From: Pimelobacter sp.
GTDB taxonomy: Bacteria; Actinomycetota; Actinomycetes; Propionibacteriales; Nocardioidaceae
Length of the DNA: 32,321 bases
Reading direction: 5' to 3'
NCBI GenBank assembly: GCA_002698575.1
Contig: NZZG01000147.1
Coordinates: 1 to 32,321 of the forward strand
Shown here in pieces: positions 1 to 8,601 of this stretch (positions are counted from its first letter, which is position 1; every line of letters starts with the position of its first letter). A model generated the notes under the pieces. That model was not told where the DNA came from, made no database searches, and worked only from the letters and a program-made list of their open reading frames with translations. Both the position numbers and the translations under genes were made by a program.

Positions 1-9
1 CCTACCGGG

Positions 10-78
10 TCCCGCAGTCAAGGACGGCCGCAGGCCGCCGCGAAGCGGGCGAGCGAAGCTCGATCCTTGACGGCGGGA
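10..78. repeat. Multi-hairpin palindrome downstream of livF
   Basis: An outer stem is formed by 10-24 and 64-78, which are reverse complements at 14 of 15 positions. It encloses three small perfect hairpins laid end to end: CGGCC-GCA-GGCCG at 25-37, CCGC-GAA-GCGG at 38-48 and CGAGC-GAA-GCTCG at 50-62. Nearly every base is paired and each inner loop has three bases. It lies 74 bases past the livF stop, so it could end or stabilise the liv transcript, but there is no T-run on either side. It could equally be a copy of a dispersed palindromic (REP-like) repeat. Structure is read directly from the sequence; function is inferred. The rest of 1-151 shows no gene. Confidence 0.6.
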
Positions 79-151
79 GCAGGTCGGCTACGCGCGCGGT
101 CCCGCTACCTCCACCACCGCAACCACCAGGACCAACCCCAGGAACCCGCGC

Positions 152-907
152 CTACTCGGCGCCGACCTCCTTGGCCAGCGTCCCGAGGTACAGCTCGATG
201 ACCTTCGGGTCGTTGGCCAGCTCGCGTCCGGTGCCGGTGTAGGCGTCGCGACCCTGGTCGAGCACGTACCCGCGGTCGCAGACCTGCAGGCAGCGGCGGG
301 CGTTCTGCTCGACCATCACGACGCAGACCCCCGTCTTGTTGATCCGGCGGGTGCGGATGAAGGTCTCGTCCTGGCGGACCGGCGACAACCCGGCCGACGG
401 CTCGTCGAGGAGCAGCACGGAGGGCTCCATCATCAGGGCGCGCGCCATGGCCAGCGACTGCCGCTCACCACCGGAGAGCGCTCCGGCACTGCGGTCCTTG
501 CGCTCGTGCAGGTTGGGGAAGAGGTCCCAGGTCGCCGCGAGCCGCTCCTTGAGCTTCTTGGGGCGCAGGAAGAGCCCCATCCGCAGGTTCTCCTCGATGG
601 TGAGCGAGGGGAAGACGTTGTTGTTCTGCGGAACGAAGCCGACGCCCATCTGCACGAGCTGGTTGGCCTTCATGTTGGTGATGTCGCGCTCCCCCAGCCG
701 CACCTCACCGGAGTGGATCTTGACCAGGCCGAACATCGCCTTGAGCAGGGTCGACTTGCCGGCACCGTTGGGACCGATGATGCCGATCATCTCGCCCGGG
801 TAGGCCGTCAGGCTGCACCCGTTGAGGATGTTGACGCCGGGGAGGTAGCCGGCGACGAGGTCCTTGGCCTCGACGACCGGCTGCTGGCCCGTGGGTGAGC
901 TGCTCAT
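152..907 (-). CDS. livF: Branched-chain amino-acid ABC transporter ATP-binding protein LivF
   Basis: This is one of the two cytoplasmic ATPase subunits that drive uptake of branched-chain amino acids or related substrates through the LivH/LivM channel. The 251-residue protein has Walker A GPNGAGKS (about 45-52), the Q-loop FVPQ (91-94), the signature LSGGE (144-148) and Walker B VLLLDEP (164-170). After these come the EQN in place of the usual EH(D) and the GYVLDQGR stretch typical of LivF. The ATG start overlaps the livG stop as ATGA (904-907), so translation is coupled. It is the last gene of the liv operon seen here. The substrate could differ from leucine, isoleucine and valine, because the binding protein that sets specificity is not in the window. 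Confidence 0.95.
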   Translation of the reverse strand: MSSSPTGQQPVVEAKDLVAGYLPGVNILNGCSLTAYPGEMIGIIGPNGAGKSTLLKAMFGLVKIHSGEVRLGERDITNMKANQLVQMGVGFVPQNNNVFPSLTIEENLRMGLFLRPKKLKERLAATWDLFPNLHERKDRSAGALSGGERQSLAMARALMMEPSVLLLDEPSAGLSPVRQDETFIRTRRINKTGVCVVMVEQNARRCLQVCDRGYVLDQGRDAYTGTGRELANDPKVIELYLGTLAKEVGAE

Positions 908-1884
908 GCGTGCTTCCCTTCGTCGGTGCTCTCCTGGGACGGCGCGCCTGCCTCGGCGGCGGTCTCGGACATGGGTCCGAGGTCGGCGCTCTCGTCGAGC
1001 AGGTCGTCATCGCCCAGGTCGGTGTCGTGGTGGGCGCCGAGGTAGGCGTCGATCACGGCGGGGTTGGCCATCACGGTGTCGGCCGGGCCCTCGGCGACGA
1101 CCTGGCCCTCGGCCATGACCACGACCCAGTCGGAGATGTGCTGGACGACGTGCATGTCGTGCTCGACGAACAGCACGGTGGTGCCCTCGTCGCGCAGTGC
1201 CTGGATGTGACCCAGCAGGGACTGGGTCAGCGCCGGGTTCACCCCGGCCATCGGCTCGTCGAGCATGATCATCTTCGGGTCGCTCATCAGCGCTCGCGCC
1301 ATCTCGAGCAGCTTGCGCTGACCACCCGACAGGCTTCCGGCGTAGTCGTCCTTCTTCTCGAGCAGCTTGAACCGCTCCAGCAGACCCGCGGCCTTCTCCT
1401 CGACCTCGCGCTCCTGCGAGGACCAGATCGGTCGGAACATGCAGCGCAGCAGGCTCTCGCCGCGCTGGTCCTTGGCCCCGAGGAGCATGTTGTCCATGAC
1501 CGTCATCCGGCTCAGTGCCTTGGTGAGCTGGAAGGTGCGCACCATCCCCGACTTGGCCACCGCGGAGGCGCCCGTCTTGTCGAGCGTGGCACCGTCGAAG
1601 GACCAGTGGGCCCCCTTGCCGGCGCTGCTCGGCTTGTCGAAGCCCGTGATCAGGTTGAAGAACGTGGTCTTCCCGGCACCGTTCGGTCCGATCAGGGCGG
1701 TGATCATGCCGCGCTGGACCTCGAGGTGGTTGACGTCGACCGCAGTGATGCCGCCGAAGCGGCGGGTGATGTTGTCGACCTGGAGGATCGGGTCCGGCTT
1801 GGCGGAGCCGGGCTCCTGGGCCACGTCGGCCATGAGCCGACGGCGTACGGCGGGGTCGGCCATGCCGACGGTTGTCTCAGACAT
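904..1884 (-). CDS. livG: Branched-chain amino-acid ABC transporter ATP-binding protein LivG
   Basis: This is the second ATPase of the Liv importer and pairs with LivF on the cytoplasmic face of the permeases. The 326-residue protein carries Walker A GPNGAGKT (66-73), the Q-loop VRTFQL (115-120), signature LSGGQ (185-189), Walker B MIMLDEP (205-211) and the FVEHDM H-loop. LivG proteins are usually near 250-290 residues. The extra length is a 30-residue N-terminal lead-in and an acidic, low-complexity C-terminal tail from about residue 285 (HHDTDLGDDDLLDESADLG). The start ATG overlaps the livM stop by eight bases (ATGTCTGA, 1877-1884). Family assignment is firm; the role of the acidic tail is unknown. 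Confidence 0.95.
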   Translation of the reverse strand: MSETTVGMADPAVRRRLMADVAQEPGSAKPDPILQVDNITRRFGGITAVDVNHLEVQRGMITALIGPNGAGKTTFFNLITGFDKPSSAGKGAHWSFDGATLDKTGASAVAKSGMVRTFQLTKALSRMTVMDNMLLGAKDQRGESLLRCMFRPIWSSQEREVEEKAAGLLERFKLLEKKDDYAGSLSGGQRKLLEMARALMSDPKMIMLDEPMAGVNPALTQSLLGHIQALRDEGTTVLFVEHDMHVVQHISDWVVVMAEGQVVAEGPADTVMANPAVIDAYLGAHHDTDLGDDDLLDESADLGPMSETAAEAGAPSQESTDEGKHA

Positions 1885-3271
1885 TGAACCGGAGCTCCCT
1901 CTTGTTGCCCAATATCCCTTGTGGTCGGAAGATCACCAGCAGCATCAGGCCGACGCCCACCACCACGTAGGAGAACTGCTCGGTCTGCGAGTTGGTCATG
2001 ATCGCGTCCGGGATGTAGGCGCCGGACGCCTCGCGGATCAGGATGCGGGCCGAGAAGAAGATGATCGTGCCGAGCACCGGACCGAAGATGGTCGCCGCAC
2101 CGCCGAGCAGCAGCGCGGTGTAGGCGAAGAACGTCAGCGAGCGACCCATGGAGTCGGCCTGCACCGTGCCGGTCAGGACGTAGACCATGCCGCCCAGCGA
2201 GCCGAACATGCCGCCGATGATGAGCGCCTGCATCTTGATCGCGAAGACGTTCTTTCCGAGGCTGCGCATCGCGTCCTCGTCCTCACGCACCCCGCGCAGG
2301 AGCCGGCCCCAGGGGCTGCGCACCAGCAGGAAGACCACCGCGCACGACAGTCCGACGATGAACCAGGCGATCATCCGCACCCACCAGCCGTCGACACCGG
2401 TGCGGTCGTAGGTCTTGGGGAAGGTGAAGAAGATGCCGAGCACGGCCACCAGGATCAGCACGCCGGCCAGCACGGCCTTGCGACCCTTGGACGTCTTCCA
2501 GGCGGCGTAGGCGGCCTGGCCGCCGAACAGCACCGCGAGCATCAGGCTCGAGAAGATCACGAACGCCACCACGCGACTGAAGATGTCCGTGGCGGTGTCC
2601 CGGTCGGCGTACGCCGGCACCACCACGGTCAGGATCGCCCCCAGCACCAGGGCGACCGCGACCAGGGCGCGGCGCAGCGTCGACGACGTCGGGGCCAGCA
2701 CGGCTCCCCCGGCGGCCTTCAGGCTCCGGAGCAGCACCACCGCGCCCACGATGGCGCCGATCAGCACGACCAGGCCGAGGACCTGGACCCACCGCGCACC
2801 GTCGGCGACGTCGGTGTAGTTGAACTCCAGCAGGGTCAGGCGACCCGAGCCGAGGAACGACAGCGAGATGAACGGCCCTTGGTAGTCCTTGCCGAAGATG
2901 CCCTGGGAGCCTCCGGTGAAGTCCTCGAAGGCCGCTAGTCGTCCGGAGTACCGGACGATCTCGGCGGCCGAGATCGTCACGATCGCCAGGTAGTCGCCTC
3001 GCAGCTTGAGCGTCGGTAACCCGAGGATCAGCGAGAAGACGAAGCTCACCACGAAGCCGATCAGCACCGCGAACAGCAGCGGGATGTCGTAGGTGATCGA
3101 GATCGCCATGCCGTAGGCGCCCAGCAGCATGTAGCCGGCCTGACCGATGTTGAGCAGGCCGGTGAAGCCGAAGTGGATGTTCAGGCCGATGACCGCGATC
3201 GCGACCGCGGCGGTGTTGGGCGCGATCGCCTCGCGCATCGTGGCGTTGAGGATGCTCAGAATGGTGTCCAT
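1877..3271 (-). CDS. livM: Branched-chain amino-acid ABC transporter permease LivM, enlarged
   Basis: This is an inner-membrane channel subunit of the Liv importer. The 464-residue chain opens with the LivM core (GLNIHFGFTGLLNIGQAGYM at 29-48; GLPTLKLRGDYLAIVTI at 84-100). It ends with the ATPase-contacting loop (SPWGRLLRGVREDEDAMRSL, 319-338) and the terminal FRPQGILG motif. LivM is usually about 300-360 residues. Here roughly residues 160-295 form an added block with about four hydrophobic segments between the two canonical halves. The start is ATG with AAGGAG five bases upstream, the Shine-Dalgarno overlapping the livH stop; the gap to livH is 10 bases. The reading frame is intact throughout, so the insert looks like real protein. 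Confidence 0.93.
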   Translation of the reverse strand: MDTILSILNATMREAIAPNTAAVAIAVIGLNIHFGFTGLLNIGQAGYMLLGAYGMAISITYDIPLLFAVLIGFVVSFVFSLILGLPTLKLRGDYLAIVTISAAEIVRYSGRLAAFEDFTGGSQGIFGKDYQGPFISLSFLGSGRLTLLEFNYTDVADGARWVQVLGLVVLIGAIVGAVVLLRSLKAAGGAVLAPTSSTLRRALVAVALVLGAILTVVVPAYADRDTATDIFSRVVAFVIFSSLMLAVLFGGQAAYAAWKTSKGRKAVLAGVLILVAVLGIFFTFPKTYDRTGVDGWWVRMIAWFIVGLSCAVVFLLVRSPWGRLLRGVREDEDAMRSLGKNVFAIKMQALIIGGMFGSLGGMVYVLTGTVQADSMGRSLTFFAYTALLLGGAATIFGPVLGTIIFFSARILIREASGAYIPDAIMTNSQTEQFSYVVVGVGLMLLVIFRPQGILGNKRELRFNV

Positions 3272-3281
3272 GTGGGCTCCT

Positions 3282-4631
3282 TCAGCCGACCCGTGCTGCT
3301 CGACCGAGCAGGCCCTGGGGCCTGACCATCAGCAGGACGATGAGGATGACGAGGGCGACGGCGTACTTGAGGTCGCCCGGGGCGCCGAGCGGTCCGGCCA
3401 GCTCGACCACCAGCCCGATGATGATGGCCCCGACGAAGGCGCCAAAGGCGGTGCCGAGCCCCCCGAGGGTCACTGCGGCGAAGAGCAGCAGCAGGATCTG
3501 CATGCCGGTGTCCCACCGGATGCCGTTGCTGACCACGAGTGCGTAGAAGACACCACCGAGCCCGGCGAGGCCCGCGGCCACGATCCAGACCATCCGGATG
3601 ATCTTGTCGACGTCGATGCCGGACGCGGCGGCGAGGGCCGGGTTGTCCGACACGGCCCGGGTGGCCTGCCCCACCCTCGTGTAGAGCAGGACGTAGCCGA
3701 CGATGCCGATCGCCACCAGGGCGACGCCCATGGCCACGAAGGACATCCCGGTCAGCCGGATCGGGCCGAGCTCGACGACGTCGAAGTTGCGGACCACGAC
3801 CTTCTGCTGGGAGGCACCGACGAAGTACTGGAACGCGTACTGCGCGGCCAGCGACAGCCCGATCGTCACGATCATCATCTGGGTGAGCCCGAGGCCCCGT
3901 TTCCGCAACGGCTTCCACATCACGAAGTCCTGAAGGAAGCCGCTGAACCCACAGATCAACGTGGTGAGCACGATGCCCACCCACAGGTTGATGCCGGCGA
4001 CGTTGCACAGCCCGTAGGCGACCATGCCGCCGAGGGTCACCTGCTCGGCGTGGGCGAAGTTGGACAGCCCCGTGGTGCCGTAGATCAGGGACAGACCGAC
4101 CGAGGCCAGGGCCAGCAGCAGCCCGAGACGCAGGCCCTGGGCGATGCTCTGGATGATCTGGTCCCCGAAGCTGTCACCCCCGGCGTCGAAGTCGACAGAT
4201 CGTACGTTGAGGTCCGGACTCACCGAGCCTCCGAGCGCGACGGTGACCTTGATCGAGCCGTCCGGGCCCTGGAAGCGCTCGGCGGGCGGGCGCACCTCCA
4301 GCCCGTCGGGGAGCTCCCCGACGCTCACGAGGTAGTCACCGGCCTCGGTGACCTGGAAGCTGAACTTGCCGTCGGCCTCGGTGGTCAGCGAGTCGACCTC
4401 GACCCCGTCGGCATCGAGCAGCGTGACCTCGACCCCTTCGACGGGGTTGGCGCGGTTGCCCACCGTGCCCGTGACGCAGCCGGTCTGGTCGGCCTGGGCC
4501 AGGCAGAGCACCACCGCGTTGGCAGGCGGGGCGCCCATCAGCAGCGCCAGGGGCGCGAGCAGCATGCCCAGCAAGGCACCCACAACAGTCGTTCGTCTAC
4601 GAATACCGGGTGGCCTCGTGCATGGCTTCAC
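3282..4631 (-). CDS. livH: LivH-type permease with secreted N-terminal beta-sandwich domain
   Basis: The C-terminal portion (about 158-449) is a LivH permease: GLSLIYGTTGLSNFAHAEQV (179-198), the ATPase-contact loop around TRVGQATRAVSDNPALAAASG, and the final VRPQGLLGR. Ahead of it sits material that LivH normally lacks. There is a classical signal peptide (basic RRR at 11-13, hydrophobic core 16-34, likely cleavage after PPANA at 39), two cysteines (43 and 52), and a domain at about 53-145. The motif GTVGNRANPVEGVEVTLLD followed by TEADGKFSF resembles the carboxypeptidase-regulatory/prealbumin-like beta-sandwich. The GTG start has a strong GGAGGAGGAG six bases upstream (4638-4647). It is the first gene of the liv operon. 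The permease call is firm, the extra domain is a fold-level judgement, and its function is unknown. Confidence 0.92.
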   Translation of the reverse strand: MKPCTRPPGIRRRTTVVGALLGMLLAPLALLMGAPPANAVVLCLAQADQTGCVTGTVGNRANPVEGVEVTLLDADGVEVDSLTTEADGKFSFQVTEAGDYLVSVGELPDGLEVRPPAERFQGPDGSIKVTVALGGSVSPDLNVRSVDFDAGGDSFGDQIIQSIAQGLRLGLLLALASVGLSLIYGTTGLSNFAHAEQVTLGGMVAYGLCNVAGINLWVGIVLTTLICGFSGFLQDFVMWKPLRKRGLGLTQMMIVTIGLSLAAQYAFQYFVGASQQKVVVRNFDVVELGPIRLTGMSFVAMGVALVAIGIVGYVLLYTRVGQATRAVSDNPALAAASGIDVDKIIRMVWIVAAGLAGLGGVFYALVVSNGIRWDTGMQILLLLFAAVTLGGLGTAFGAFVGAIIIGLVVELAGPLGAPGDLKYAVALVILIVLLMVRPQGLLGRAARVG

Positions 4632-4672
4632 GTGGTTCTCCTCCTCCGCGCCCGGCTGGGCGGCGACTCAGC

Positions 4673-4800: not shown

Positions 4801-5436
4801 TCACGATCCCCCGGCGATCTCCGGGCCGTGGGTCACCACGCCCTCGGCGACCTGGCGCATCGACAGGCGCAGGTCCATCGCGGTCTTCTGGATCCAGCGG
4901 AAGGCCTCCGGCTCGGAGAGCGACAGCTTCTCCTGCAGCACCCCCTTCGCCCGGTCGACCGACTTGCGGGTCTCGAGGCGCTCCTGGAGGTCGTGCACCT
5001 CGCTCTCAAGCTGGGCGAGCTCGGCGAAGCGCGAGACCGCCATCTCGATCGCCGGCACCAGGTCGGACTGGGTGAACGGCTTGACCAGGTAGGCCATCGC
5101 CCCCGCGTCGCGGGCCCGCTCGACGAGCTCGCGCTGCGAGAAGGCCGTCAGGATCACGACCGGCGCGATCCGCTTGGCAGCGATCGCCTCCGCGGCCGCG
5201 ATGCCGTCGAGGACCGGCATCTTGACGTCGAGGATCACCAGGTCGGGGCGGTGCTCGGTCGCCAGCTCGATCGCCCTGGCCCCGTCGCCGGCCTGACCGA
5301 CGACGTCGTACCCCTCCTCGGTGAGCATCTCGGCGAGGTCCATCCGGATCAACGTCTCGTCCTCGGCGATGACGACGGTGCGTCTCGCGGCCGTGGTCGG
5401 ACTCGGGGACGCTGCGGGGGTGGGGGTGTCGTTCAC
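4801..5436 (-). CDS. pdtaR: ANTAR-domain response regulator (PdtaR/AmiR-NasT type)
   Basis: This is a two-component regulator that acts on RNA rather than DNA: the receiver is phosphorylated by a sensor kinase and the ANTAR domain then binds twin-hairpin RNA to prevent termination or alter translation. The receiver (about 18-135) has the acidic pair E25/D26, phospho-acceptor D70 in VILDVKMP, T97 in LTAFS and K119 in YLVKPF. A coiled-coil linker (about 138-158) leads to the ANTAR domain (about 158-202, KSVDRAKGVLQEKLSLSEPEA then the LSMRQVAEGVV helix). In mycobacteria the partner is the kinase PdtaS; no kinase is encoded here. The GTG start is preceded by TACCCT and six bases, suggesting a leaderless mRNA. 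The gene symbol is by family resemblance; which transcripts it controls is unknown. Confidence 0.9.
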   Translation of the reverse strand: MNDTPTPAASPSPTTAARRTVVIAEDETLIRMDLAEMLTEEGYDVVGQAGDGARAIELATEHRPDLVILDVKMPVLDGIAAAEAIAAKRIAPVVILTAFSQRELVERARDAGAMAYLVKPFTQSDLVPAIEMAVSRFAELAQLESEVHDLQERLETRKSVDRAKGVLQEKLSLSEPEAFRWIQKTAMDLRLSMRQVAEGVVTHGPEIAGGS

Positions 5437-5442
5437 CCGCCC

Positions 5443-5448
5443 AGGGTA
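5443..5448 (-). promoter_or_regulatory. -10 box of a leaderless promoter for the ANTAR regulator
   Basis: TACCCT on the minus strand ends six bases (GGGCGG) before the GTG start at 5436. This is the spacing expected when transcription begins at the start codon. No clear -35 is visible. Confidence 0.5.
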
Positions 5449-5479
5449 GTCGGCGCCGCAGGTGAGGGTGGTGATCGGC

Positions 5480-5485
5480 TAGGGT
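5480..5485 (+). promoter_or_regulatory. -10 box for the tRNA gene
   Basis: TAGGGT lies 13 bases before the mature 5' end of the tRNA at 5499, implying a short 5' trailer removed by RNase P. It is divergent from the promoter of the ANTAR regulator, with the two -10 boxes about 31 bases apart. No good -35 is seen. Confidence 0.45.
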
Positions 5486-5498
5486 TTCGTCCGCATCA

Positions 5499-5571
5499 GC
5501 CCCGGTAGTCCAACGGCAGAGACAATGGTCTCAAACACCATCCAGTGTGGGTTCGAATCCCACCCGGGGTA
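5499..5571 (+). tRNA. tRNA with anticodon CAA (Leu by anticodon), class I shape
   Basis: A 73-base cloverleaf can be drawn. The acceptor is GCCCCGG (5499-5505) with CCGGGGT (5564-5570), including a G1-U72 wobble pair. U8 and A9 follow. The D arm is GTC/GAC with G18-G19 in the loop. The anticodon stem is ATGGT (5525-5529)/ACCAT (5537-5541) with loop CTCAAAC, so U33 is followed by CAA (5532-5534). The variable loop has five bases (5542-5546). The T arm is GTGGG-TTCGAAT-CCCAC (5547-5563), and A73 follows. CCA is not encoded. CAA reads the leucine codon UUG, but bacterial leucine tRNAs normally have a long variable arm. Discriminator A73 fits leucine. Charging identity is therefore uncertain; the tRNA fold itself is clear. 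Confidence 0.85.
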
Positions 5572-5625
5572 CTCAGCGAACGATGCTGCGAACGACGCTG
5601 CCGGGCGGTCGGAGAGCAGCGGGGA

Positions 5626-7086
5626 TCAGGGCTGACGGTAGGCCGGTGCCACGCCGTTGATCGCGTCGCCCATCTGGTGGATGCGCAGCGCGTTGGTCGA
5701 GCCGGGGATGCCCGGCGGGCTCCCGGCGACGATGACGACCAGGTCGCCCTCCTTGACCCGTCCGATCTGCAGCAGCTGCTCGTCGACCTGGCGCACCATC
5801 TGGTCGGTGTGCTCGACGGCGTAGGTGCGGAAGGTCTCGACGCCCCAGCTCAGCGACAGCTGCGAACGGACCTTGTTCTCCGGCGTGAAGGCCAGCACGG
5901 GCACCTTGCTGCGCAGGCGCGAGAGCCGCTTGGCCGAGTCACCGCTCTGGGTGAAGGCCACGATGTACTTCGCGCCCACGCGGGTGGCCACCTCCTCGGC
6001 GGCCTTGGCGATCACGCCGCCGCGCGTGTGCGGGTCCCAGTCGATCGCCTCGAACTGTCCGAGGTCGGACGGCTCGAGAGCGTGCTGCTCGGTCGCGGAG
6101 ATGATCCGAGCCATCGTCTCCACGGTGTGGATCGGGTGGTCGCCCACGCTGGTCTCGCCCGACAGCATCACCGCGTCGGCACCGTCCAGCACCGCGTTGG
6201 CGACGTCGCTGGCCTCGGCCCGCGTCGGCGCCGGGTTGGTGATCATCGACTCCAGCATCTGGGTGGCCACGATCACCGGCTTGGCGTTGAGGCGGGCCTT
6301 GTCGACGACCTTCTTCTGCAGGAACGGCACGTCCTCCAGCGGGCACTCCACGCCGAGGTCGCCGCGCGCCACCATGAAACCGTCGAAGGCGCCGACAACC
6401 TCGTCGAGGTTGTCGATCGCCTGGGGCTTCTCGATCTTGGCGATCACCGGCAGCAGGACGCCCTCCTCCCGCATGATCGCGCGCACGTCCTCGGCGTCGG
6501 CGGCGTTGCGCACGAAGCTCAGGGCGATGAAGTCGACGCTGAGGCTCAGGGCGAAGCGCAGGTCGGCGATGTCCTTGGTCGACAGCGCCGGGACCGACAC
6601 CGCCACGCCCGGGAGGTTGATGCCCTTGTTGTTGCTCACCGGGCCACCGACGAGCACCTCGGTCACGACGTCAGTGTCCTCGACCGCCACGACCCGGAGC
6701 CGGACCTTGCCGTCGTCGATGAGGATCGGGTCGCCGGGGTTCACGTCGCCGGGCAGGCCCTGGTACGTCGTGCCGGCGACCTCGCCGTCGCCGGGCACGT
6801 CGCGCGTGGTGATCGTCCACCGTTGACCGCGGCTCAGCACCGCGTGGCCCTCGGCGAAGGTCGCGAGCCTGATCTTGGGGCCCTGCAGGTCGGCGAAGAT
6901 CCCCACCCCGTGCCCGGAGGCGTCCGCCGCCTCGCGCACCAGGCGGTAGGTCTCGGCGTGGTCGGCGTGGGTGCCGTGGCTCATGTTGAGCCGGGCGACA
7001 TCCATCCCGGCGTACACGAGCTCGCGGATCCTCCGCTCGGAACTCGTCGCTGGGCCCAGGGTGCACACGATCTTTGCTCTCCGCAC
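5626..7086 (-). CDS. pyk: Pyruvate kinase
   Basis: It catalyses phosphoenolpyruvate plus ADP to pyruvate plus ATP, the last step of glycolysis, in the cytoplasm. The 486-residue protein begins MRRAKIVCTLGPATSS and has NMSHG (34-38), FADLQGPKIR, the PYK signature VIAKIEKPQAIDN with catalytic Lys217, and MVARGDLGVE (about 238-247). The B domain and an allosteric C-terminal domain are complete. A GTG nine bases upstream (7095) is in frame but overlaps the -10 box. The start at 7086 (GTG) gives the conserved MRRAKIVCTLGPA N-terminus and sits seven bases after TAGGGT, so I chose it. The neighbours, ANTAR regulator and gltBD, are separate transcripts. The family call is certain. Confidence 0.97.
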   Translation of the reverse strand: MRRAKIVCTLGPATSSERRIRELVYAGMDVARLNMSHGTHADHAETYRLVREAADASGHGVGIFADLQGPKIRLATFAEGHAVLSRGQRWTITTRDVPGDGEVAGTTYQGLPGDVNPGDPILIDDGKVRLRVVAVEDTDVVTEVLVGGPVSNNKGINLPGVAVSVPALSTKDIADLRFALSLSVDFIALSFVRNAADAEDVRAIMREEGVLLPVIAKIEKPQAIDNLDEVVGAFDGFMVARGDLGVECPLEDVPFLQKKVVDKARLNAKPVIVATQMLESMITNPAPTRAEASDVANAVLDGADAVMLSGETSVGDHPIHTVETMARIISATEQHALEPSDLGQFEAIDWDPHTRGGVIAKAAEEVATRVGAKYIVAFTQSGDSAKRLSRLRSKVPVLAFTPENKVRSQLSLSWGVETFRTYAVEHTDQMVRQVDEQLLQIGRVKEGDLVVIVAGSPPGIPGSTNALRIHQMGDAINGVAPAYRQP

Positions 7087-7093
7087 GTGCTTC

Positions 7094-7099
7094 ACCCTA
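7094..7099 (-). promoter_or_regulatory. -10 box of a leaderless pyk promoter
   Basis: TAGGGT (minus strand) is followed by seven bases (GAAGCAC) and the GTG at 7086. A weak GTTTAG -35 would lie at 7117-7122, overlapping the gltD stop codon. An imperfect 14-base palindrome (TTGGAACGTTCTAA, 7107-7120, two mismatches) covers the spacer and could be an operator; this is only a suggestion. Confidence 0.5.
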
Positions 7100-7116
7100 G
7101 CGCGGATTGGAACGTT

Positions 7117-8601
7117 CTAAACCACCAACGGCCTCGCCGTCGGCGGGATCGGCCTCGGCAGCGTGGTGGAGCCGGTGAGGTGCTGGTCGACCGCGGCGGC
7201 AGCGGCCCGACCCTCCGCGATGGCCCACACGATCAGTGACTGACCACGGCCGCAGTCGCCGGCGGAGAAGACCCCGGGGACCGAGGTCATGTAGTCCTTG
7301 TCGCGCGCGACGTTGCCGCGCTCGTCGAGGTCGACGCCGAGCTGCTCGACGATGCCGGGCTTCTCGGGCCCGACGAAGCCCATCGCGAAGAGCACCAGCT
7401 GGGCCGGGATCTCCCGCTCGGTGCCCTCGATCTCGGTGAGCTTGCCGCCCTCGAAGACGACGTCGACGAGGAGCAGCGCGCGGACGTTGCCGTCCTGGTC
7501 GCCGAGGAACTCCTTGGTGGACACGGCGTACACGCGGTCGCCGCCCTCCTCGTGGGCCGAGGAGACCCGGAACGTCATCGGGTACGTCGGCCACGGCTGC
7601 CCGGCAGGGCGGCTCTCCGGCGGCTCGGGCATGATCTCGAGCTGCGTGACCGAGCGTGCACCGTGCCGGGTGGAGGTGCCGAGGCAGTCGGCACCGGTGT
7701 CGCCGCCGCCGATGATCACGACGTCCTTGTCGGTGGCCATGATCTGCTCCTGGCCGTCGAGCTGCTCGAGACCGAGCGCGGCCCGGTTGGCCTGCGGCAG
7801 GAACTCCATCGCCTGGTGGATGCCGCCGAGCTCCCGGCCCGTGATCGGCAGGTCGCGCGCCTCGGTGGCGCCCATCGCCAGCACCACGGCGTCGTAGCGC
7901 TCGCGGAGCTTGGTGCCGCTGAGGCCGGAGGACTCTGAGCCCACGTCGATGCCGGCACGGAAGACGGTGCCCTCGCGCTTCATCTGGTCCAGGCGACGGT
8001 CGAGGTGTTTCTTCTCCATCTTGAACTCGGGGATGCCGTAGCGCATCAGCCCGCCGATCTGGTCGGCCCGCTCGTAGACGGCGACCGTGTGTCCGGCGCG
8101 GGTGAGCTGCTGGGCGGCGGCCAGTCCGGCCGGGCCGGACCCCACGACCGCGACGGTGCGACCCGAGAGCCACTCCGGCGCCTGCGGGCGCACGTAGCCC
8201 GACTCCCAGGCCTTGTCGATGATCGAGACCTCGACGTTCTTGATCGTCACCGGGTCCTGGTTGATGCCCAGCACGCACGCCGTCTCGCAGGGGGCGGGAC
8301 ACAACCGACCGGTGAACTCCGGGAAGTTGTTGGTGGCGTGCAGACGCTCGATGGCGCCTTCCCAGTCGTCGCGCCAGACCAGGTCGTTCCACTCGGGGAT
8401 GATGTTGCCCAGCGGACACCCCTGGTGGCAGAACGGGATGCCGCAGTCCATGCAGCGTCCGGCCTGCGGGGTGATGATCGGCAGCAGCGCGCGGCCGATG
8501 CCGTCGGGATAGACCTCGTTCCAGTCGTGGATCCGCTCCTCGACCGGTCGACGGGTCGCGACCTCGCGCCCTTCCTTCAGGAATCCCTTGGGGTCAGCCA
8601 T
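7117..8601 (-). CDS. gltD: Glutamate synthase (NADPH) small subunit
   Basis: The beta subunit of GOGAT takes electrons from NADPH through FAD and iron-sulfur clusters to the large subunit, which makes two glutamates from glutamine and 2-oxoglutarate. The 494-residue protein has the N-terminal cysteine sets C50, C53, C58, C62 and C101, C105, C109, the FAD-binding [12 protein letters not shown] (154-165), the NADPH-binding [13 protein letters not shown], and the late FAD contact [19 protein letters not shown]. Its ATG start overlaps the gltB stop by eight bases (ATGGCTGA, 8594-8601), consistent with 1:1 coupled synthesis. Its last bases overlap the probable pyk promoter region. Length is as expected and the chain is intact. 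Confidence 0.97.

Follow-up and report, generated by a model that had tools for sequence, protein, structure and literature searches.

What might a signal peptide and a predicted external β-sandwich domain accomplish ahead of the first transmembrane helix of a LivH-type permease, and is such an arrangement a peculiarity of one protein or a feature of a whole lineage? The question is raised by a gene on the minus strand of the window, that is, of the entire 32,321-nucleotide stretch of DNA analysed, which stems from an organism with Nocardioides as nearest named relatives. The position of the gene (Table 1) had been given correctly by a previous reading of the letters alone (the sequence-only reading), and its view that one continuous protein is encoded agrees with the single open frame of 449 aa and the strong Shine-Dalgarno ahead of the GTG. 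The encoded protein, here called the extended LivH, scores 127.1 bits with PF02653 (BPD_transp_2), above the gathering score of 26.8, and its gene opens an operon of the order livHMGF, in which the genes of another permease and of two ATPases come next on the same strand, with overlaps of a few bases. LivG is the top NCBIfam match of the livG product and UrtE and LivF are those of the livF product, all under their cut-offs, and we infer an amino acid as substrate of the importer. As the start of the window is the end of contig C16, the sequence past livF is missing. That the gene encodes a LivH-type permease of a livHMGF operon equipped with a predicted signal peptide and a predicted external β-sandwich is hardly in doubt; the whole reading preferred here, in which the domain would in addition help to bring the substrate-binding lipoprotein LivK into place above the mouth of the translocation path, is given a probability of about 0.45.

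Table 1. Positions of the features discussed, in coordinates of the window
Feature	Position	Strand	Basis and remarks
Extended livH gene	3282..4631	minus	449 aa, GTG start codon at 4631; translation, Pfam, ORF list
Shine-Dalgarno GGAGGAGGAG	4638..4647	minus	sequence; 6 bases before GTG
Predicted signal peptide, residues 1-39	4515..4631	minus	AxA (ANA) before residue 40; AlphaFold helix 13-30, low pLDDT
Cys43 codon	4503..4505	minus	C in 62/63 rows of alignment A2; possible disulfide partner of Cys52
Cys52 codon	4476..4478	minus	C in 62/63 rows of alignment A2
CnaB/CarboxypepD_reg-like domain, predicted β-sandwich, residues 45-145	4197..4499	minus	Pfam, AlphaFold, Foldseek, VIA-align
Linker, residues 146-154	4170..4196	minus	AlphaFold; length differs between relatives
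LivH permease core, residues 155-449	3285..4169	minus	BPD_transp_2 at 163-434, Pfam E 9.1e-37
livM permease	1877..3271	minus	464 aa; BPD_transp_2 E 9.2e-36
livG ATPase	904..1884	minus	ABC_tran and BCA_ABC_TP_C; overlaps livM by 8 bases
livF ATPase	152..907	minus	ABC_tran E 5.3e-34; overlaps livG by 4 bases
ANTAR-domain response regulator	4801..5436	minus	Response_reg and ANTAR; upstream of livH, frequent neighbour in relatives
tRNA-Leu(CAA)	5499-5572	plus	separates the genes of the ANTAR regulator and of pyruvate kinase
Palindromic repeat	1-110		24-nt arms 1-24 and 64-87

With the LivH family as defined by PF02653 and NF008011 the protein shares the permease core, the livHMGF gene order and, in relatives, a Peripla_BP_6 protein near the operon, whereas the signal peptide and the predicted β-sandwich ahead of helix 1 set it apart; with NF008011 it reaches 67 bits, against a cut-off of 379. 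With the UrtB model TIGR03409 it scores 113 bits and stays below the equivalog cut-off of 250.3. The neighbouring LivM is long, its two conserved parts being separated by a hydrophobic stretch at approximately residues 150-290, where tblastn alignments with relatives frequently break in two.

The signal peptide and the two cysteines proposed by the sequence-only reading are both found, the former as a hydrophobic core with the AxA motif behind it, the latter as Cys43 and Cys52; an additional cysteine is located at residue 4. An AxA motif behind a hydrophobic core occurs in 58 of the 63 relatives of alignment A2, a few rows of which have uncertain starts, and cleavage of the signal peptide is therefore likely, as judged from the sequences. 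A Cys43-Cys52 disulfide is predicted. Among the best 120 of 7014 homologues, 118 possess a cysteine pair 8-9 residues apart before the permease, which is more than would be expected of a chance feature. Within a permease tree of 113 rows the pair is limited to one subclade of 50 rows, of which one member (L024) has it in a slightly different motif, and both cysteines are missing from the deep lineages of alignment A4.

The carboxypeptidase-regulatory/prealbumin-like fold suggested for the extension is likewise supported as a prediction by Pfam families and AlphaFold2 strands. Within residues 53-113, SdrD_B (34.5 bits, cut-off 29.7) and SpaA (23.9 bits, cut-off 23.1) lie above their gathering scores and CarboxypepD_reg (31.7 bits, cut-off 32.3) just below, while the structure prediction of the full chain places eight strands between residues 50 and 145 with pLDDT values of 80-97 by ten-residue blocks; the domain modelled alone reaches a mean pLDDT of 90.4. 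Conserved in the domain are G88, G98 and the aromatic residues 90 and 100, which, on the alignments, look like positions of the fold rather than a binding patch. In isopeptide-bonded CnaB domains a triad of Lys, Asn/Asp and Glu is conserved. The domain does not show this triad: a conserved strand-A Lys is absent, the top column amounting to 13% in A2 and 8% in A4; the top Glu columns reach 62% (residue 96, A2) and 36% (residue 106, A4), and position 105 is Asp in 84% (A2) and 87% (A4) of the rows, but Gly in the protein of the window. Several database records are named 'SdrD B-like domain-containing protein', and the names of some (P0021, P0025, P0039 and P0056, the last being SpaA-like in one source) are taken from the domain and not from the permease, a possibly misleading annotation.

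With surface stalk domains of Gram-positive bacteria, namely UafA, SdrD B, CnaB2 and pilins, as best fold matches in Foldseek and VIA-align, the domain could also be imagined as a spacer or anchor that keeps the importer in place within the thick envelope by contact with peptidoglycan or glycans of the wall. This is rather unlikely, though a serious rival, as each protein has a single domain, wall-binding families are absent among the Pfam matches of the extended LivH and the relatives scanned, and the linker between domain and permease is short in Nocardioides. CnaB, SdrD B and SpaA stalk domains differ from the present domain, which resides on a membrane importer and is devoid of the conserved strand-A Lys.

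The sequence-only reading had considered the arrangement unusual, a view that has to be given up, as the extension is present in many actinobacterial relatives and represents the rule in one actinobacterial clade. In the 80 named loci retained, the best of at least 561 confirmed to encode a relative, which include Nocardioides, Curtobacterium, Cryobacterium, Frigoribacterium, Subtercola, Actinotalea, Cellulomonas, Nostocoides and other genera, the match invariably starts at or before query residue 51, and livM adjoins livH. In a sample of the genus, 84 of 147 genomes, that of the window among them, encode a LivH with a match into the extension (E 1.6e-66 or better and a start at query residue 79 or earlier, thus inside or before the domain; in one of the 84, G144, the match is cut by a contig end). 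In a further 62 genomes the best match has E 3.3e-30 or weaker; among those listed, these weak matches start at residue 114 or later. One genome is without match. In the class sample this permease clade is represented in 46 of 118 genomes (E 7.8e-44 or better); CarboxypepD_reg was recognized in 37 of the 39 proteins scanned, the domain being missing in the alignment from the other two (L155 and L160), and the matches of the seven remaining proteins begin at query residues 4-52. What appears as an oddity in a single protein can thus be seen as a widespread importer architecture. Long acidic stretches of low complexity stand before the domain in L127, L149 and L150 and after it in L151-L154 and L156-L159, and L157-L159 carry an additional hydrophobic insert inside the permease.

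The domain is under purifying selection. Between its codons and those of the 98% identical relative G057, 26.5 differences are synonymous and 4.5 nonsynonymous, and dN/dS amounts to 0.046 for the domain, 0.14 for the signal peptide and 0.016 for the permease; in comparisons with five relatives at greater distance, the domain exceeds the permease in dN by a factor of 2.3 to 3.8. The remaining two of the best 120 homologues (P0031 and P0032) represent the sequence of the window itself, called as a gene of 313 aa from residue 137 onwards, as would be expected if translation started near residues 137-155 and the extension were not made. Such a late start is barely credible in view of the strong Shine-Dalgarno at the upstream GTG, the low dN/dS of the domain and its presence in nearly all class members scanned.

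Where the domain would be located depends on the orientation of the permease. The loop of residues 238-249 (four Lys/Arg, no Asp/Glu) and the C-terminal tail of residues 436-449 (three Lys/Arg, no Asp/Glu) are assigned to the cytoplasm because they are rich in Lys/Arg, and the domain is acidic with 6 Lys/Arg versus 20 Asp/Glu. Together with the helix count in the model, this charge distribution predicts that the N-terminus of the permease is outside. The N-terminus of BtuC starts inside. According to PMC3098086, the first, N-terminal helix of BtuC-type permeases is missing from UrtB, a relative, in agreement with an N-terminus of the permease on the outside. Consequently, where the sequence-only reading had made the tethering conditional on an uncleaved signal peptide, transmembrane helix 1 would hold the domain outside the cell with or without cleavage, which is favoured by the AxA motif in the relatives. 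The idea of an external module on a LivH permease is supported with its outside location as a prediction.

What might such a tethered domain do? The maltose permease subunit MalF belongs to another permease family than LivH. Its P2 region, like the present domain carried by the permease subunit of an ABC importer, lies in the periplasm and makes direct contact with the binding protein MalE, but is internal (residues 91-271) and not N-terminal (PMC3150292). By this analogy, positioning of LivK over the translocation mouth is a likely role of the domain. A LivK relative was detected by tblastn in 71 of the 80 named loci retained, and in Nocardioides livK is convergent and downstream of livF; four LivK relatives scanned are Peripla_BP_6 proteins, with a lipobox seen by eye in the three examined. 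LivK was not found in the window or in its own genome, which is 86% complete, with a query that retrieved it in three of three related genomes, G057 among them. This gap is likely due to an assembly break at a repeat: in G057 livK is situated near the end of another contig, and the palindromic repeat found at the start of the window (Table 1) flanks the livF/livK contig break on both sides. Counting the copy in the window, this repeat has 44 matches in the genome to which the window belongs, many of them at contig ends, and seems to be a REP-like dispersed element that breaks assemblies.

On the other hand, several observations count against the positioning of LivK. A covariation of evolutionary distances between domain and LivK gave no LivK-specific signal (partial correlation -0.01; 158 of 300 permutations as high), although the test proved unspecific, as LivM (0.24) and the cytoplasmic LivF (0.21) exceeded all permutations (0/300 each). 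Domain and permease core are separated by 16 to 55 residues in the 63 rows and by more in some deep lineages, which counts against a fixed docking geometry. Also unfavourable are the location of the conserved residues at fold-like positions, the existence of a conserved lineage without the domain and the failure to find LivK in the window's own genome.

The history of the extension places this lineage in context. In two trees built from permease columns only, with 113 and 84 rows, two trait changes are needed in each, and the extended proteins form one group, the clade including the domain-less L155 having support of 100/99 in the 84-row tree, where L155 groups with three extended rows (99/93). 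Rooted on 24 permease-family rows without extension, with mostly short N-termini by eye and an additional hydrophobic stretch in one (L169), the trees read as one gain followed by one later loss of the domain. Within the genus of L155, 5 of 61 genomes encode the domain-less form, with open frames of 336-347 aa and 84-97% identity to L155; a signal-peptide-like start is kept in all four N-termini examined, that of L155 included, and the operon is retained as read in L155. This suggests that the domain is dispensable in the lineage, which, with start and operon preserved, constitutes a natural deletion control for the role of the domain.

The persistence of the signal-peptide-like start in these closely similar proteins looks as if insertion with the N-terminus outside outweighs the domain and is what would be expected of a module for topogenesis or stability, whereby signal peptide and domain aid the N-out insertion of helix 1 and stabilize the permease without binding a partner; the apparent lack of a conserved binding patch points in the same direction. 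We regard this as rather unlikely but worth keeping in mind, since the outgroup permeases insert without any extension and the domain has been retained across great divergence (37/39 class members scanned).

An independent sensor for a ligand or an ion that modulates transport, akin to the additional subunits NikK and NikL in nickel importers, is far less probable. NikK and NikL face outside. Over residues 35-104 the extended LivH shows a weak profile similarity to NikL (NCBIfam NF058648, 22.2 bits against a cut-off of 100), DUF4198 is matched in 11 of 39 deep members, and PMC2667541 describes NikK and NikL, extra parts of an ABC-type nickel importer as well, as taking part in nickel uptake where NikN is absent. 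They are, however, separate subunits of another importer type, and the domain is without a conserved His (top column 28% in A4, 3% in A2).

Long UrtB proteins offer a precedent for the layout. Among four plasmid UrtB genes opened, two encode long proteins of 533 and 543 aa and two encode short ones, of 297 and 301 aa according to their coordinates. The long forms, from Shinella and Hydrogenophilus plasmids, share the permease family, a hydrophobic signal-like N-terminus and an extra N-terminal part of approximately 200 residues, but this part matches HEAT_2 (31.1 bits in Hydrogenophilus, above the cut-off of 27.7; 20.6 in Shinella, below it) instead of a β-sandwich family. Permeases of this kind with a secreted domain at the N-terminus are thus already known, though with another fold, and for the β-sandwich version no publication was found in a literature search at the level of listings. 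It might be speculated, though with more doubt than confidence, that N-out importers of the LIV family gained a secreted N-terminal docking domain at least twice, a CnaB-like sandwich once in the actinobacterial LivH clade and a HEAT-like domain in UrtB, the former being a new part for positioning the binding protein. If true, Gram-positive bacteria would possess an equivalent of MalF-P2 that uses the stalk fold of adhesins.

An ANTAR response regulator adjoins livH in Nocardioides loci, and the same holds for some deep lineages (L156-L159). In L151 and in Actinotalea and Cellulomonas loci it occupies another place nearby, and it was not found in Curtobacterium loci. Where the contig allows, Nocardioides loci share the order gltD, pyk, ANTAR response regulator and livHMGF, with gltD to the regulator at 4801-8601 of the window.
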